From assembly GCA_019750135.1 (NCBI GenBank), contig JAIEOV010000058.1:59053-123052 (forward strand): a DNA stretch of 64,000 bases. The letters are read 5' to 3'. The notes under the pieces are model-generated. The model saw nothing but the letters and a program-made list of their open reading frames with translations. It was not told the origin of the DNA and searched no databases. The position numbers and the translations under genes were made by a program. Below are positions 54,662-62,517 of the stretch, one piece after another. How positions within the stretch are numbered: position 1 is the stretch's first letter; the number at the start of each line of letters is the position of its first letter. This DNA is from Reyranella sp. GTDB lineage: Bacteria > Pseudomonadota > Alphaproteobacteria > Reyranellales > Reyranellaceae.

Positions 54662-55360
54662 ATGTCTGTAAACAATCGCGGCAAGAAAATTCTGCTGGTC
54701 GACGACGACCAGGGCCTGCGCACGGTGCTCGCCGAGCAGCTCGACCTCTATGACGGGTTCACCACCATCCAGGTCGGCACGGCGGCGGAGGGCATGGAGA
54801 AGGCCAAGCTCGCCCATTACGACGCCATCCTGCTCGATATCGGCCTGCCCGACATGGATGGCCGCGAGCTCTGCAAGCTGATGCGCCGTCAGGGCGTGCG
54901 CGCACCCGTGATCATGCTGACGGCGGCCGATTCCGACGCCGATACCATCCTGGGCCTGGAATCGGGCGCCAACGACTACGTCACCAAGCCGTTCCGCATC
55001 AACGTCCTGCTGGCCCGGCTGCGCGCCCATCTGCGCCAGCATGAGCGCAGCGAGGATGCGGTGATGACCATCGGCCCCTACGAGTTCCATCCTGCGGCCA
55101 AGATGCTGATGGAGAAGGCCGGCAAGAAGAAGATCCGGCTGACCGACAAGGAAGCCTCGATCCTGAAGTACCTGTTCCGTGCCGGCGACCGGCCGGTGGC
55201 GCGCGACGTGCTGCTGAACGAGGTCTGGGGCTACAACGCCGGGGTCACCACCCACACGCTGGAAACGCATATCTACCGCCTGCGCCAGAAGATCGAGCGC
55301 GATCCGGCCAGTGCCGCCATCCTGATCACCGATCGCGGCGGCTACCGGCTGCAGCCCTGA
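54662..55360 (+). CDS. response regulator, OmpR family, no adjacent kinase
   Basis: KKILLVDDDQGLRTVLAEQL, DAILLDIGLPDMDGRELC, NDYVTKPFRI, winged-helix C-terminus. Confidence 0.92.
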   Translation: MSVNNRGKKILLVDDDQGLRTVLAEQLDLYDGFTTIQVGTAAEGMEKAKLAHYDAILLDIGLPDMDGRELCKLMRRQGVRAPVIMLTAADSDADTILGLESGANDYVTKPFRINVLLARLRAHLRQHERSEDAVMTIGPYEFHPAAKMLMEKAGKKKIRLTDKEASILKYLFRAGDRPVARDVLLNEVWGYNAGVTTHTLETHIYRLRQKIERDPASAAILITDRGGYRLQP

Positions 55361-55440
55361 GGTGGGGTGCTTGCCAAAAGGTGACCAAAGCGTCATCTTT
55401 TTCATAACCTGAGAAAAATGCACCCCGGGAGGGCCCTCTC

Positions 55441-56508
55441 ATGAGCACGCAGCGCATCTACGCCCTGCCCGTCGAGACCACCGAGTGGAAGTTCGACGGC
55501 GCTACCGAGATCCAGTTCAACTGGGAGTACGACGACGGCTCGGACGCGCTGCTCGAGCTCTACGACAAGGGCAAGAAGCAGCAGTGGGACGCCAGCACCC
55601 GGCTCGACTGGTCGCTCGAGCTCAACCCTGAGAATCCGATGGAGCTCAAGGACGAGGCGCTGACGATCTACAACACCGACTACTGGCGCAAGATGACCGA
55701 CAAGGAGAAGGGTTGGCTGCGCCAGAACCTGCAGGCCAACCAGATCTCCCAGTTCATGCACGGCGAGCAGGGCGCGCTGATCGCCACCGCCAAGATCGTC
55801 GGCACCGTTCCCGACATGAACGCCAAGTTCTATGCCGCCACGCAGGTGATGGACGAGGCGCGCCACGTCGAGGCCTACAAGCGCCTGTTGCACGAGAAGT
55901 TCGATCTCGCCTATCCGATCAATCCCTCGCTGAAGACGCTCCTGGAGCAGACGCTGACTGACCGGCGTTGGGACATGACCTATCTCGGCATGCAGGTGCT
56001 GATCGAGGGCCTGGCGCTGGCTGCTTTCCAGTCGATTCGCGACAAGGCCGGCAACACGCTGGCCAGCGCGGTCAACGCCTACGTCATGCAGGACGAGGCG
56101 CGGCACGTCTCGTTCGGCCGTCTGGCGCTGCGCGAGTATTATCCGCATCTCTCCGCCGCCGAGCGCGACGAGCGCGAGCAGTTCGTGGTCGAGGCGCTCT
56201 ATTTCATGCGCGACCGTTTCAACAATTCGGAAGTGTGGGAGCGGCTCGGCCTGCCGGCCGATGCGCTGAACGAGCTGACCTACAATTCCAAGCAGATGGC
56301 CTCGTTCCGCGGCCGCCTGTTCAGCCGCATCGTGCCCACGGTCAAGGATATCGGCCTGTGGGGCGAGCGCGTGCAGAAGGCCTTCGCCGAGATGGGTGTG
56401 ATGGACTACGCCAAGATCGACGTCACCGAGCAGCTCGAGAATGACGGCAAGGTCGCCGAGGACTTCGACAAGAAGATGTTCATCGAGAAGGCGATCGCGG
56501 CTGAATAG
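55441..56508 (+). CDS. ferritin-like diiron protein (RNR R2 / bacterial multicomponent monooxygenase-type motif), paralogue 1
   Basis: Two motifs: HGE-X28-DEARH and EGL...E-X28-DEARH; paralogue of 61450-62517. Confidence 0.85.
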   Translation: MSTQRIYALPVETTEWKFDGATEIQFNWEYDDGSDALLELYDKGKKQQWDASTRLDWSLELNPENPMELKDEALTIYNTDYWRKMTDKEKGWLRQNLQANQISQFMHGEQGALIATAKIVGTVPDMNAKFYAATQVMDEARHVEAYKRLLHEKFDLAYPINPSLKTLLEQTLTDRRWDMTYLGMQVLIEGLALAAFQSIRDKAGNTLASAVNAYVMQDEARHVSFGRLALREYYPHLSAAERDEREQFVVEALYFMRDRFNNSEVWERLGLPADALNELTYNSKQMASFRGRLFSRIVPTVKDIGLWGERVQKAFAEMGVMDYAKIDVTEQLENDGKVAEDFDKKMFIEKAIAAE

Positions 56509-56672
56509 TACCTACACTTTCGCTCGACCCCATCTACTGTTCGGATGGTTATGAGATCGAACATTGATTCGGCGCACGAACCGCTCAATAGCCAATAAGC
56601 TTTCCGCGACCTGAACCGCCAACCTCACGGGTTGTATTTCTTTGCCGGTACATATTCTATAATTCTAGCAAT

Positions 56673-58889
56673 ATGTACGACTTTCGAACACTTTCGCCGC
56701 TCGACTTCGAGGAATTGGTTCGGGACCTGTTGCAGGCGGAGCTGAGAATTCGAATGGAAAGCTTTGGCTCTGGTCGAGATTTGGGAATCGACTTCCGCTT
56801 CTCTCTTGGTGGCAACAAGGCGGTTGTGCAAGCGAAACACTATGTCGAAAGTGGTATCAATGGCCTCATCCGAACGGCCCGCAAAGAAAATACCAAAGTC
56901 GGCAAGCTATCTCCGATTCGATATATACTTGCGACATCCGTTTCTTTGACCCCCTCTCAGAAATCTCGGCTGCAGACGGCGATGCCCGAGGCACCGTTGG
57001 CAGACGAAGACGTCTTTGGTCAGAAGGATCTCAATAACCTCTTGAGTCGACATCCTGAGGTGGAGCGAAAACACTTCAAGTTATGGTTAGGTAGTACGCA
57101 CGTTCTCGAGCGTATCCTGCACAGCGGCATTTACAATCGGTCACAAACCGAAATGGAGATCATTCGCAACTCAATTCCTAAGTTCGTGCAAAACGACAGT
57201 GTGCCTGCTGCTGAGTCTATTCTTGCCAAGTCTGGCGCACTAATAATTGCAGGTGAGCCAGGAGTTGGAAAAACGACTTTGGCCCGCATGCTCGTTTGGT
57301 TGCATGCTGAAGAAGGCTGGCAAATCTCCGTTATCGACGACATTAAGGAGGCCTTCGAAATTGCGACCGATGGTGCGAAGCGGCTGATTTTCTTTGATGA
57401 CTTCTTGGGCCAAATTCGTCTCTCGACAGACGTGATTCGAGGGGTCGACCAAAAGCTATCGCCGCTCTTGCATAAGGTTCGTCTTAATAAGGATGTCCGC
57501 TTCATACTAACAACGCGAGATTACATCCTGCGCCAAGCTCAAACGTACTCCGCTCGCTTGGCAAGCCCTGAGTTGAATGCGAGCGAATTCACTCTTCATG
57601 TTGGTCATTACACGAGAGCGGCTAGAGCAAAGATCGTATACAACCATCTGTACTTCTCAGCGTTGAGCCACGCTGAACGGCAGTCACTTTTGAAAGATGA
57701 CTTTTATCTTACGATGATTGATCATCGAAACTTCAGTCCTCGGCTCATCGATCTTCTTACAAACGCTGAATATCTTTCGATGTTGAAGAAGCCAATTCGG
57801 CGTGCTGTCGAAACAGTATTGGAACATCCGCAAGAGCTTTGGGAGAAGCCCTACCGAACGCAGATTAGCGAAGAGGGCCGAGCGTTGATGTTGGCTCTCT
57901 TCTTCAATTCGGCAACAGTTGCGCTCCCTGCCCTGCAGGATTCGTTCAATCGAATTGTTGATGCAATGGGTTTCACAATCCCTACGGCAGATCGGGCGAC
58001 CAGATTTCGCACTGCCCTCAAGGAGCTAGAAGGATCTGTACTTTCTATCCAGAACCGGAAAGCGCAGTTCTCCAACCCTGGGGTAAGGGACTTCCTTCTG
58101 ACGGCTGTCAAAGAAGACGGACTTCTACCTGCCGTTGTTGGCGTTGCAACGGAATATCAAGAGCTGAGGCAATCTTGGAACTTGTTTTGCAGCCTGGAGC
58201 CAGATCAACCCATCGGCGCAGCGATGAGAGAAAAGTGGATACGCGCTGCTAAACGTTTGAATGACGCTGACACTGGGACAGCCCTCGAACGGCTTCAGCT
58301 GGTACTCGACATGTACGACCGCATAGGAGGCGAAGAGCTTGTTGTGGACGTACAGTTTGTTGCTGGTGATCTGGAGGCTAACGGGATCGAAGGAGACGAA
58401 GTAGAGCTGTCGCAGTCCGTGCTGGAGCAACTTGCCGGGTCAGCGCTGCCGCAAAATGCACTCGAGGAAGTTCGAGTTATCATGATCGAGGCGGTGGGTA
58501 ATATGCTCTCTGAGACGGGCGGACATATGATGCTTGAGGAAATCGAAGCGACCGCAAATTCTATGAAGCAGTGCGGTGCCGATGAGGACAGCGTTTCCGA
58601 GGCAGTTGGTGGGGCTTTGCGCGCTTTCGTCAAAGAGACCGATTGGTCCGACGTCTGGACGTTTGACGAACTTGATGACCTGGAAGGCGAGCTAAGATCC
58701 GTCATGAATGAATTTGGAGTTGAAGATAGGCGCGTTGAAGGCGCGCTTGAACGAAAACGCGACGATCTTAGCGAACAGGGGGAGCGGCATCGTAGCGGCG
58801 GATATGGAAGGCGGAGCATGCCTTCACTACAGTCAGAAACCACTGACGATGAGATTCGCTCCATGTTTGATGGTCTTCGCCAGAGCTAG
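56673..58889 (+). CDS. PD-(D/E)xK (Mrr-like) nuclease domain plus nSTAND3-like NTPase, putative anti-phage protein
   Basis: LDFEELVRDLL...GIDFRFSLGGNKAVVQAKHY; IIAGEPGVGKTTLARMLVW; RLIFFDDFLGQ; RFILTTRDYIL; lower GC than flanks. Confidence 0.8.
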   Translation: MYDFRTLSPLDFEELVRDLLQAELRIRMESFGSGRDLGIDFRFSLGGNKAVVQAKHYVESGINGLIRTARKENTKVGKLSPIRYILATSVSLTPSQKSRLQTAMPEAPLADEDVFGQKDLNNLLSRHPEVERKHFKLWLGSTHVLERILHSGIYNRSQTEMEIIRNSIPKFVQNDSVPAAESILAKSGALIIAGEPGVGKTTLARMLVWLHAEEGWQISVIDDIKEAFEIATDGAKRLIFFDDFLGQIRLSTDVIRGVDQKLSPLLHKVRLNKDVRFILTTRDYILRQAQTYSARLASPELNASEFTLHVGHYTRAARAKIVYNHLYFSALSHAERQSLLKDDFYLTMIDHRNFSPRLIDLLTNAEYLSMLKKPIRRAVETVLEHPQELWEKPYRTQISEEGRALMLALFFNSATVALPALQDSFNRIVDAMGFTIPTADRATRFRTALKELEGSVLSIQNRKAQFSNPGVRDFLLTAVKEDGLLPAVVGVATEYQELRQSWNLFCSLEPDQPIGAAMREKWIRAAKRLNDADTGTALERLQLVLDMYDRIGGEELVVDVQFVAGDLEANGIEGDEVELSQSVLEQLAGSALPQNALEEVRVIMIEAVGNMLSETGGHMMLEEIEATANSMKQCGADEDSVSEAVGGALRAFVKETDWSDVWTFDELDDLEGELRSVMNEFGVEDRRVEGALERKRDDLSEQGERHRSGGYGRRSMPSLQSETTDDEIRSMFDGLRQS

Positions 58890-59047
58890 GTGGCCTCAAA
58901 TCGGCGCATTGGCCAATTCAGCGGACCGAAAGGATGAAGGACCTTGATGGCACCGTACAGCCGCACTTGTCACAGTGATCACTGGGGAGTGATCTCCTGA
59001 AATGACCACGATGCGCTAGCGTGCGCTCCTCATCGAAGGAGCCACCC

Positions 59048-59650
59048 ATGCTGCGACGCGCGCTTTTGGTCTTCACAGCCGCTGCGATCTGCTCGACGCC
59101 GCTTTGGGCGCAGGAAACGCGGCGCGTCCGGGCCACCATCGAGAAAGTCGACGGCTCGACCTTCTACGCCAAGACGGCCGACGGCGAGGAGCTGAAGATC
59201 ACGGTCGCCGACAAGCCGGTCTACATGGCGATCATTCCGGCAACGCTGGCCGATCTCAAGCCCGGCACCTTCGTCGGCTCGGGCGCCACGCCGGGACCTG
59301 ACGGCAAACTGATCGCGATGGAAGTGCACATCTTCCCGGAGGCCATGCGCGGCACGGGCGAAGGGCATCGGCCGATGGAAGGACCGCCTCAGGCCACCAT
59401 GACCAATGCCAATGTCGACGTGTCGGTCGCCGGCGTCGATGGCCAGGTGCTGACGCTGAAATACAAGGACGGCGAGAAGAAGCTTCTGGTCACGCCCAAG
59501 ACCGCCATCGTCGCTTATACGCCGGGCGATCTCGGCGAGCTGAAGCCCGGCATCAAGATCTTCATTGCTTCTGCCCAGAAGCAACCCGACGGCTCGCTGA
59601 AGGCCGCGCGGATTTCCTACGGCCGCAACGGACTCACGCCGCCGATGTAG
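59048..59650 (+). CDS. secreted protein with repeated beta-rich (DUF5666-like) modules
   Basis: MLRRALLVFTAAAICSTPLWAQ signal; two similar modules (ATIEKVDGSTFYAKTADGEELKI and VSVAGVDGQVLTLKYKDGEKKLLV). Confidence 0.65.
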   Translation: MLRRALLVFTAAAICSTPLWAQETRRVRATIEKVDGSTFYAKTADGEELKITVADKPVYMAIIPATLADLKPGTFVGSGATPGPDGKLIAMEVHIFPEAMRGTGEGHRPMEGPPQATMTNANVDVSVAGVDGQVLTLKYKDGEKKLLVTPKTAIVAYTPGDLGELKPGIKIFIASAQKQPDGSLKAARISYGRNGLTPPM

Positions 59651-59662
59651 GAATCTTTGCTG

Positions 59663-60289
59663 TCAAAGCAGGACGACGATCACCAGCAGGACGGCCGGCA
59701 CGATCAGCGGCCAGGCGACCAGGTGCAGCAGCAGGCCGCCCGCGACCGCGCCCACCAAGTAGCCGAGCCAGGTCAGCATCAGCAGGCGCGGGGTGGTGAC
59801 GGCGGGCAGCGGCGCCACTTCGGCCGGCCACAGCCGGTCGAGCGCCGCGTCGGCGGTGCGGGCGAGCGTGCTGGTCACCACGACCGTGCTCACCGAGACG
59901 CCGCCGAACTGGGTGATGGCCGAGGCCTGCAGCCCCATGGCGAAAGCCAGGATCAGGACCGCGGTTTCCGAAGCAAGCGGCAGGAAGCCCATGGCGCCGA
60001 TGATCGCCGCCTCCAGCAGGATCGGGATCATGGGCCTGGCCCAGAGCCGCAGCAGCAGGCGCGCCAGCATGGCGCCGATGAAGAAGGCGACCAGCGGCGC
60101 GAGATGCCGGCCGGCGTCGGGATAGCGGCTCTCGGAAAGCGCGATGCCCGCCAGCACCGTGTTGCCGGTCATGTTGGCGGCGAACACGCCGCCCATGGTG
60201 ATGTAGCCCACCGCGTCGGCGATGCCGGCGATGACGGTGAGCAGGGTCGCCTGTATCTGCGGCCGGACGATCGCTACACCACGTCGTAG
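59663..60289 (-). CDS. YoaK/DUF1275-like membrane protein (start uncertain)
   Basis: LLTVIAGIADAVGYITMGGVFAANMTGNTVLAGIAL; no conventional start between the reductase stop and the conserved N-terminus. Confidence 0.75.
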   Translation of the reverse strand, partial: LRRGVAIVRPQIQATLLTVIAGIADAVGYITMGGVFAANMTGNTVLAGIALSESRYPDAGRHLAPLVAFFIGAMLARLLLRLWARPMIPILLEAAIIGAMGFLPLASETAVLILAFAMGLQASAITQFGGVSVSTVVVTSTLARTADAALDRLWPAEVAPLPAVTTPRLLMLTWLGYLVGAVAGGLLLHLVAWPLIVPAVLLVIVVLL

Positions 60290-61299
60290 GTGATCTCGAC
60301 CTCGGCGCCGAAGCAATGGCCCTGGCAGGTCAGGATCCAGTTGTTGGCGAGGTCGTCGGGCGTGTAGATGTCGTTCTTGGCCAGAAGCACCTTGCCCTTG
60401 ATACGCTTGGCCGCGCACGAAGCGCAGAAGCCTTCTTCGCACGACGACAGGGGATTGAGCCCCGCATCACGCGCCGCCTCGAGGATGGTCTTGCCCTTCG
60501 AGTAGGGCACCTTGTGGGTCTTGCCCTCGAAATGGATGACGATGTGGTCGGGGATGACGTCGCCCTCTTCGCTGGGCTCGATCGGGATGGCATCGTTGCC
60601 CGAGGCCTCGAAGCGCTCGATGCGCACGCGGTCGTGGGCCATGCCGTGCTCGAACAGCGTCTCCTCGACCAGCGACATGAACGGGCCGGGCCCGCAGAGA
60701 TAGGCGTCGCCCGCCTCGAAACCCTTCATTGCCGCCACGATCTCCTCGGGCTTGGTGATGCCCTGCGTGGCGTCGAGATGGTGGATGACCTCCAGGCGCC
60801 CGGGATGGGCCTTCACCAGGGCCTCGAACTCGGCGTCGAAGATCACCGATTGCTTGTCGCGGTTGGCGTAGAACAGCCGGATCTGCCGCTTGGTGTTTTT
60901 GAGCGCCGACTTGATCAGCGACATCATGGGCGTGATGCCGCTGCCGCCGCCGAACAGCAGCAGCGTTCCGGCGCTGCCGTCGTTCAGCACGAAGCGGCCG
61001 GCCGGCGGCAGCACCTCCAGGGTGCCGCCTTCCTTCAGGGCGTCATGGAACCAGTTGGAGCCCTTGCCGCCGGTGACGCGCTTCACCGTGACCTTGGGCA
61101 GGCCGTCGGTCTCGGGTGCGCTCGACAGCGAGTAGCAGCGGTTGAAGGCGCCGTCGGGGTGACCCACCTTGAAGGTCAGGAACTGACCGGCGCGATAGCG
61201 GTACTTGTCGGCGAGGTCGGCGGGGACATCTAGGACGAAAGAGCGCGCATCGGGGGTCTCTTGGATGATCTTGGCGATGCGCAACTTGTTGTAGGACAT
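60274..61299 (-). CDS. FAD/NAD(P) oxidoreductase with C-terminal plant-type 2Fe-2S ferredoxin domain (PaaE/KshB-like)
   Basis: YRAGQFLTFKV, RCYSLSSAPE, GGGSGITPMMSLIKS, NPLSSCEEGFCASCAAKRIKGKV...LTCQG. Confidence 0.92.
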   Translation of the reverse strand: MSYNKLRIAKIIQETPDARSFVLDVPADLADKYRYRAGQFLTFKVGHPDGAFNRCYSLSSAPETDGLPKVTVKRVTGGKGSNWFHDALKEGGTLEVLPPAGRFVLNDGSAGTLLLFGGGSGITPMMSLIKSALKNTKRQIRLFYANRDKQSVIFDAEFEALVKAHPGRLEVIHHLDATQGITKPEEIVAAMKGFEAGDAYLCGPGPFMSLVEETLFEHGMAHDRVRIERFEASGNDAIPIEPSEEGDVIPDHIVIHFEGKTHKVPYSKGKTILEAARDAGLNPLSSCEEGFCASCAAKRIKGKVLLAKNDIYTPDDLANNWILTCQGHCFGAEVEITYDVV

Positions 61300-61347
61300 T
61301 CGGCAAACCAACGTTCAGGGATCATGCAATTTCCGGACGGGACTCCA

Positions 61348-61364
61348 CTAGCAGACTGTGCTAG
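61348..61364. promoter_or_regulatory. candidate operator in divergent region between reductase and diiron paralogue 2
   Basis: CTAGCA-gactg-TGCTAG perfect inverted repeat. Confidence 0.35.
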
Positions 61365-61449
61365 CTTCCGCTCGAAAAATGAACGGAGCGTCATCTTTGC
61401 CGCTCCGTCTTGGGATGGGACCGTGTAACGCGGCAGGAGGCAAGAGCCA

Positions 61450-62517
61450 ATGACGACGCAGAAGATCTATCAGCTCCCCGTGGAGGTCACGAACTGGAAG
61501 TTCGATGGCGCCACCGAGATTGCGTTCAACTGGGAATACGACGCCGGCTCGGCCGACCTGTTGAATCTCTATGAGAAGGGCAAACAGCAGCAGTGGGACA
61601 CCAGCACCCGGCTGGACTGGAGCCAGGAGCTGTTCGAGGAGAACCCGATGGGGATGGCCGACGAGTCCATCCCGATCTACGGCACGCCCTTCTGGGAAAA
61701 GATGACGGAGAAGGAGAAGAACTGGCTGCGCTTCAACCTGCAGTGCCATTCGATCTGCCAGTTCATGCACGGCGAGCAGGGCGCGCTGATCGCGACGGCC
61801 AAGATCGTCAACACCGTGCCCGACATGAACGCCAAGTTCTATGCCGCGACCCAGGTGATGGACGAGGCGCGCCACGTCGAGACCTACAAGCGGCTGATCC
61901 ACGAGAAGTTCAAGGCGGCCTATCCCATCACCGATTCGCTCAAGAACCTGCTCGAGCAGACGCTGAGCGACCGGCGCTGGGACATGACCTATCTCGGCAT
62001 GCAGGTGCTGATCGAGGGCCTGGCGCTGGCCGCCTTCCAGCGTATCCGCGACACCGCGACGAACAACCTCGCCGGTGCGGTGAACGCCTACGTCATGCAG
62101 GACGAGGCGCGTCACGTCACCTTCGGCCGCATGGCGCTGCGCGAGTACTATCCGCACCTCACCGACGCCGAGCGCGCGCAGCGCGAGGAATTCACGGTCG
62201 AGGCGCTCTATTTCATGCGCGACCGCTTCAACCAGGCCGAGGTCTGGATGCGTTCGGGCCTGCCGGTCAAGGAGATGCTGGAGCACGCCTACCACTCGGG
62301 CGCCATGCAGCAGTTCCGCAGCCGCTTGTTCACCCGCATCGTGCCGATCCTCAAGGAGATCGGCCTGTTCGGGCCCAAGGTGCAGAAGGCGTTGGGCGAC
62401 ATGGGCGTCATGGGCTACGCCGAGGTCGACGTCGAGCAGCTGATCGCCAACGACCTCAAGGTCGCCGACGACTTCGACGCCAAGAAGTTCGTCAACGAAG
62501 CGATCGCGGCGGAATAG
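61450..62517 (+). CDS. ferritin-like diiron protein, paralogue 2
   Basis: Same length and motifs as paralogue 1: HGEQGALIATAKIVNTVPDMNAKFYAATQVMDEARHVE and ...NAYVMQDEARHVTFGR. Confidence 0.85.
   Translation: MTTQKIYQLPVEVTNWKFDGATEIAFNWEYDAGSADLLNLYEKGKQQQWDTSTRLDWSQELFEENPMGMADESIPIYGTPFWEKMTEKEKNWLRFNLQCHSICQFMHGEQGALIATAKIVNTVPDMNAKFYAATQVMDEARHVETYKRLIHEKFKAAYPITDSLKNLLEQTLSDRRWDMTYLGMQVLIEGLALAAFQRIRDTATNNLAGAVNAYVMQDEARHVTFGRMALREYYPHLTDAERAQREEFTVEALYFMRDRFNQAEVWMRSGLPVKEMLEHAYHSGAMQQFRSRLFTRIVPILKEIGLFGPKVQKALGDMGVMGYAEVDVEQLIANDLKVADDFDAKKFVNEAIAAE

Follow-up and report, generated by a model that had tools for sequence, protein, structure and literature searches.

Two paralogous putative diiron oxygenases of Reyranella, their neighbouring reductase, and a shared operator-like dyad

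A 64,000-nucleotide stretch of the genome of a Reyranella soil bacterium (the window) encodes two closely similar proteins with motifs of a diiron site and a reductase with flavin and iron-sulfur motifs, which raises the question of what reaction the two proteins catalyze and whether the reductase serves them. The alignment of copy 1 (c1) with copy 2 (c2) was gap-free over the whole length, with 258 of 355 residues identical, and exactly two E-X28-DEARH motifs were found in each copy (E109 leading to E139/H142 and E189 to E219/H222). The initial annotation had described two whole-length 355-aa paralogues, each with two exact motifs of this kind, and between them a reductase with FAD, NAD, and plant-type 2Fe-2S motifs divergent from c2, and all of these features were recovered, the last by motifs, Pfam domains, and location on the minus strand.

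The features of the locus are listed in Table 1. The ~3.8 kb between c1 and the reductase gene contains an Mrr-nSTAND3 gene, a periplasmic-type ORF, and a DUF1275 gene. The Mrr-nSTAND3 gene scored 460 bits against PDC-S73, a candidate defence family of PADLOC, and was found in this genome only, among the genomes compared; since near relatives such as G014, G004, and G022 keep the gene order without it, it is a recent insertion, a foreign defence-like insert that parts c1 from the reductase and c2. The OmpR-type response regulator directly upstream of c1 shows 94-100% conservation in most genomes of the genus and stays beside c1; in relative G223, it lies near the reductase and the copy-2-type gene.

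Table 1. Features of the diiron protein locus, numbered from the first nucleotide of the window
Feature	Position	Strand	Description
OmpR-type response regulator	54662-55360	+	
Operator-like dyad upstream of c1	55378-55400	+	AAGGTGACCAAAGCGTCATCTTT
Copy 1 (c1)	55441-56508	+	355-aa AurF-superfamily diiron protein (predicted), two EX28DEARH motifs
Mrr-type nuclease + nSTAND3 NTPase gene	56673-58889	+	GC 0.51 vs. ~0.64
PaaE/KshB-type reductase	60274-61299	-	Domains for FAD, NAD, and, at the C-terminus, plant-type 2Fe-2S; divergent from c2
Operator-like dyad in the reductase-c2 intergenic region	61376-61398	+	AAAATGAACGGAGCGTCATCTTT
Copy 2 (c2)	61450-62517	+	355-aa paralogue, 73% identical to c1

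Family, fold, and predicted metal site

In the profile search, Pfam AurF (PF11583) was the sole family whose gathering cut-off (29.6 bits) was exceeded by c1 and c2 (62.9 and 66.5 bits, respectively), and it was matched at E≤0.001 by all 47 relatives, which span Proteobacteria, Actinomycetota, Acidobacteriota, Chloroflexi, and other phyla. The RNR R2 family (PF00268) gave 24.3 and 25.0 bits against a cut-off of 33.6, the DUF455 profile also scored below its cut-off, and the NCBIfam R2lox equivalog/subfamily models gave 25.4 vs. 194 and 18.7 vs. 274 bits with c1 and no match with c2. Phenol_Hydrox (PF02332) matched neither copy, and no genes for the beta or regulatory subunits of bacterial multicomponent monooxygenases (BMM) were present among the flanking ORFs searched. 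The profiles of Phenol_Hydrox and of the cyanobacterial aldehyde-deformylating oxygenase (ADO) gave weak matches to few relatives (11 of the 47 for ADO).

The AlphaFold2 model of c1 was a helix bundle with a pLDDT of 85 and a pTM of 0.84. The best matches of this model in a Foldseek search of the PDB were CmlI, ADO, human RNR R2, and R2lox, with a probability of 1.00 and TM-scores of only ~0.4-0.5 relative to the query, indicating membership of the same superfamily in the absence of a close structural relative. Judged from the predicted structure, c1 and c2 are ferritin-like diiron carboxylate proteins, as the initial annotation had led us to expect. Its wider claim of kinship with RNR R2, BMM, and AurF-like proteins held for the AurF family, whose cut-off was exceeded, and for RNR R2 and BMM at the superfamily level only.

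E109, E139, H142, E189, E219, and H222 were invariant in the 47 relatives, and the ligands of the putative bimetal site were assigned from this conservation. In AurF, the third His ligand precedes the Glu of the second ExxH motif by four residues; this column is occupied by Val215 in c1 and c2, nearly invariantly across the 47 relatives, and by His in the true AurF neighbour from Streptomyces. The Val in place of the third His, together with the six invariant ligands, sets these proteins apart as a six-ligand branch of their own within the AurF superfamily. By sequence comparison, c1 and c2 are thus assigned to a distant branch of this superfamily that would lack the third metal-binding histidine, and not to RNR R2, R2lox, or the BMM hydroxylases. 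Members of the family were found in at least 573 genome loci of many phyla; no characterised member of the branch was found in the literature or the PDB searched.

The likeness to AurF and CmlI invites the interpretation that c1 and c2 are AurF-type N-oxygenases, which convert an amine to a hydroxylamine, nitroso, or nitro compound. Pfam AurF alone passes its cut-off, CmlI is the top fold match, two ExxH motifs lie in the helix bundle, and a homologue stands beside a true AurF-type gene in 19 Streptomyces/Actinomadura-type loci; however, one such AurF-type gene scored 310 bits against 63-66 for c1 and c2, the third His is replaced by Val215, the Reyranella proteins are paired with a reductase, and the regulon partners described below are genes for C-H oxidation and electron transfer, so that N-oxygenation appears quite improbable.

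The R2-like ligand-binding oxidase GkR2loxI was reported to be an alkane monooxygenase (PMC10867098). R2lox shares its fold with c1 and c2, was the best though weak match in sequence among solved structures (E=8.7e-05 to an R2lox homologue with the profile of the 47 relatives), and offers a reported link to alkanes; c1 and c2 differ from it in falling below its family cut-offs (25 vs. 194 bits), and they are called diiron by homology. ADO likewise shares the fold and a weak profile similarity, and differs in that its Pfam model weakly matches the 11 relatives mentioned above and that the ADO chains in the PDB have ~220-265 aa. It is unlikely that c1 and c2 are R2lox- or ADO-like proteins acting on bound fatty acids or aldehydes by self-oxidation or deformylation rather than on free alkanes: the cut-offs of NCBIfam R2lox and the Pfam RNR small chain are far from reached and few members match ADO, even though, in sequence, the best of the weak matches are to R2lox and ADO, which also rank among the best fold matches, and crotonase and acyl-CoA synthetase genes recur near homologues in some lineages.

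Pairing with the reductase and history of the copies

The ORF of the reductase opens at 61311 with TTG, and the ATG at 61299 is probably the start. The protein contains the motifs RCYSL, GGSGITP, and C-X4-C-X2-C...C, and the domains FAD_binding_6, NAD_binding_1, and a C-terminal Fer2, in that order and each above its Pfam cut-off, which is the architecture of PaaE/KshB-type reductases. The best match was the model of PaaE from phenylacetyl-CoA epoxidase (TIGR02160), with which it shares the FAD-NAD-2Fe-2S order over the full length (E=1.3e-64); it differs from PaaE in its score of 218.2 bits against the equivalog cut-off of 420.8, and no paaABCD homologues were seen among the flanking ORFs searched.

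Across Reyranella, c1, c2, and the reductase gene are conserved, with a full-length c1 in 35 of the 37 genomes of the genus and a c2 also in 35, so the observation is not due to chance. In every c2 locus of Reyranellaceae with upstream sequence, the reductase was divergent from c2 at a distance of less than 400 bp. In the closed genome G016, c1 lies 0.49 Mb from c2 and the reductase, which remain together, and relative G223 has the reductase with one copy-2-type gene and lacks c1. These two genomes make an obligate heterodimer of c1 and c2 unlikely, and the heterodimer, an option in the initial annotation, was not favoured. A second apparent case of separated copies, G024, was set aside because a contig break is more likely.

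Outside Reyranellaceae, the divergent pair of reductase and diiron genes recurs in a lake alphaproteobacterium (G080/L116, reductase 55%) and in Burkholderiaceae bacterium 16 (reductase 44%), and in G078 a 30% identical reductase precedes a 39% diiron homologue. In 387 sampled genomes of the class, a reductase with at least 55% identity was found only in a subset with a close diiron homologue. The genome scan found the reductase next door in 2 of ~64 loci outside Reyranellaceae, among the matches listed; the rarity of this neighbour indicates that the dedicated reductase is a trait of some lineages and not of the family. The earlier proposal of oxygenases with their own reductase was thereby narrowed: the pairing with c2 is present at each Reyranellaceae locus where it could be assessed and appears again in two other lineages, but most other homologues have no reductase nearby and the three genes are not a fixed trait of the family.

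The persistence of the c2 neighbourhood even where c1 lies elsewhere, together with its recurrence in two other lineages, argues against the possibility that the reductase serves another oxygenase, such as the single CYP153 of the genome, and stands beside c2 by chance or through shared regulation. That possibility would account for the many diiron homologues without a reductase and for homologous reductases that adjoin unrelated genes, and we regard it as distinctly unlikely. The pairing of the diiron copies with the reductase is well supported. The reductase search of the bacterium's own genome returned one match at E≤1e-55, and as the only close reductase of its kind it is probably shared by all paralogues.

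A third paralogue, ~82% identical to c2, was present in several Reyranella genomes, and the reductase adjoins none of its solitary loci. In a tree built by a quick method, with SH-aLRT support and no bootstrap, c1 formed one clade (99) and c2, the third paralogue, and the sequences from G223 and G037 another (97), which dates the duplication to at least the age of the genus. The two copies differ by fixed residues at 26 sites, including positions 99, 100, and 103 (before E109) and 224 (after H222) near the metal site in sequence, and at several of the fixed sites near the metal site c1 retains the commonest state of the outside relatives. The fixed differences suggest that the copies differ in substrate range, rather than forming a single heteromeric enzyme.

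A shared operator-like dyad and its regulon partners

A dyad with the consensus TGA[AC]C-N3-GCGTCAT was found upstream of c1, c2, and the third paralogue. In upstream alignments, it lies, as TGA[AC]CGNNGCGTCAT, 35-80 bp before these genes in most Reyranella genomes and ~112 bp before the single copy of G223; no match was detected in four c1 upstream regions of the genus. The exact pattern TGAMCNNNGCGTCAT occurred five times in the 8.46-Mb genome, three times in the promoters of c1, c2, and the third paralogue and twice inside coding ORFs, and the reversed pattern, used as a control, gave 0 matches. A variant of the dyad was located ~40 bp before the probable start of a fourth paralogue (contig C154) and near the starts of its orthologues in G036 and G395. 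The wider motif search of five Reyranella genomes added only this type of paralogue; its remaining matches were scattered, with no common gene seen. None of the dyads found lies near the single CYP153 gene of Reyranella. The adjacent OmpR-type regulator was considered as the binding protein and is a less likely candidate, because the dyad also occurs at the third and fourth paralogues far away and the palindrome fits a TetR dimer better.

In other Alphaproteobacteria, the palindromic form TGACGC-N2-GCGTCA precedes 35-38% homologues in G040, G046, and G264; the form before the G220 homologue is nearly palindromic. In G046, it was found before the diiron gene, between a 2Fe-2S ferredoxin gene and the divergent TetR gene adjoining that ferredoxin gene (L033:8782-9399), and before genes for a ferredoxin reductase, a GMC oxidoreductase, and a P450 that is closest, among solved structures, to CYP153 alkane hydroxylases. 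This TetR gene has a Reyranella homologue (G000:C65:14525-14932). The dyad in G220 precedes another CYP153, a ferredoxin reductase, and a Rieske oxygenase; the P450s of both genomes matched CYP153A7 at E≤3e-143. In G041, a run on one strand (L262:7217-13920, contig C14) comprises diiron, ferredoxin, CYP153, CYP153, GDSL lipase, and diiron genes, the two flanking diiron genes being of the AurF type. Palindromic operator and gene clusters are thus common to CYP153 systems and distant diiron relatives, although CYP153 is a heme P450 with no homology to the diiron proteins. By these links, distant superfamily members are placed in a regulon for alkyl oxidation. The homologues of 52-69% similarity are mostly without a clear dyad, so that the link to CYP153 through regulation connects the extremes of the family and not its middle.

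The shared dyad implies that the Reyranella copies may act on similar compounds, and it suggests that c1 and c2 attack oily, hydrocarbon-like molecules. An oxygenase chemistry is well supported as a prediction for both proteins; the electron flow, the identity of the repressor, and the substrate are what we infer. Each copy would probably be a soluble homo-oligomer that activates O2 at the six-ligand site (E109, E139, H142, E189, E219, and H222 in c1), with electrons passing from NADH through the FAD and 2Fe-2S centers of the reductase to c1 and c2, and likely to all paralogues. A TetR-type repressor would probably occupy the TGAMC-N3-GCGTCAT dyads and be freed when a lipophilic aliphatic compound is present, and c1 and c2 would then hydroxylate, or desaturate, this compound or its product. 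We give about an even chance to this reading as a whole, in which c1 and c2 are paralogous diiron oxygenases, probably homomers, that act on lipophilic aliphatic substrates, are fed from NADH via the reductase, and are under TetR-type control. A non-oxygenase role, such as the removal of O2 or H2O2 or the handling of metal, is very improbable given the dedicated reductase, the R2/AurF-type fold, and the CYP153-linked regulon, even if the ferritin-like fold and the many homologues that stand alone accord with it.

More tentatively, and less likely than not, the family may represent an unrecognised class of soluble diiron alkane or alkyl-chain hydroxylases that operate alongside CYP153 within a TetR regulon conserved in Alphaproteobacteria, and Reyranella would possess four paralogues of this class with one shared reductase. 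If the alkyl-oxidation reading is true, a further soluble class would stand beside AlkB, CYP153, LadA, AlmA, and R2lox in aerobic hydrocarbon and lipid oxidation. The operator offers a direct handle on the inducer and partners of the family, and the Reyranella reductase is a ready electron source for assays.

Homologues in other genomic settings

No consistent partner gene was found outside Reyranellaceae, where crotonases, PKS/NRPS, TetR, MerR, and true AurF vary by lineage, and a fixed operon function read from these neighbours was rejected because the partners differ among lineages. The occurrence of homologues in PKS/NRPS clusters or beside true AurF indicates that substrates may vary widely.

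In Streptomyces (L123, L126, L130, L142, L145, and others), the homologue lies beside a true AurF-type gene and is divergent with a TetR gene, and in Actinomadura (L104, L128, L131, and others) an SDR gene separates the two; two different AurF-superfamily proteins are a recurrent pair in these genera. On plasmid p1 of Burkholderia gladioli (L049:10001-11122), a 52% homologue is located within a PKS/NRPS cluster that also contains genes for aminotransferase and peptide exporter, which suggests a tailoring role. In the Reyranella genome itself, a 27% identical AurF-superfamily protein (L037:7626-8597, contig C150) has genes for sulfite reductase, sirohaem synthase, and DUF934 as neighbours, which would fit a part in sulfur assimilation.
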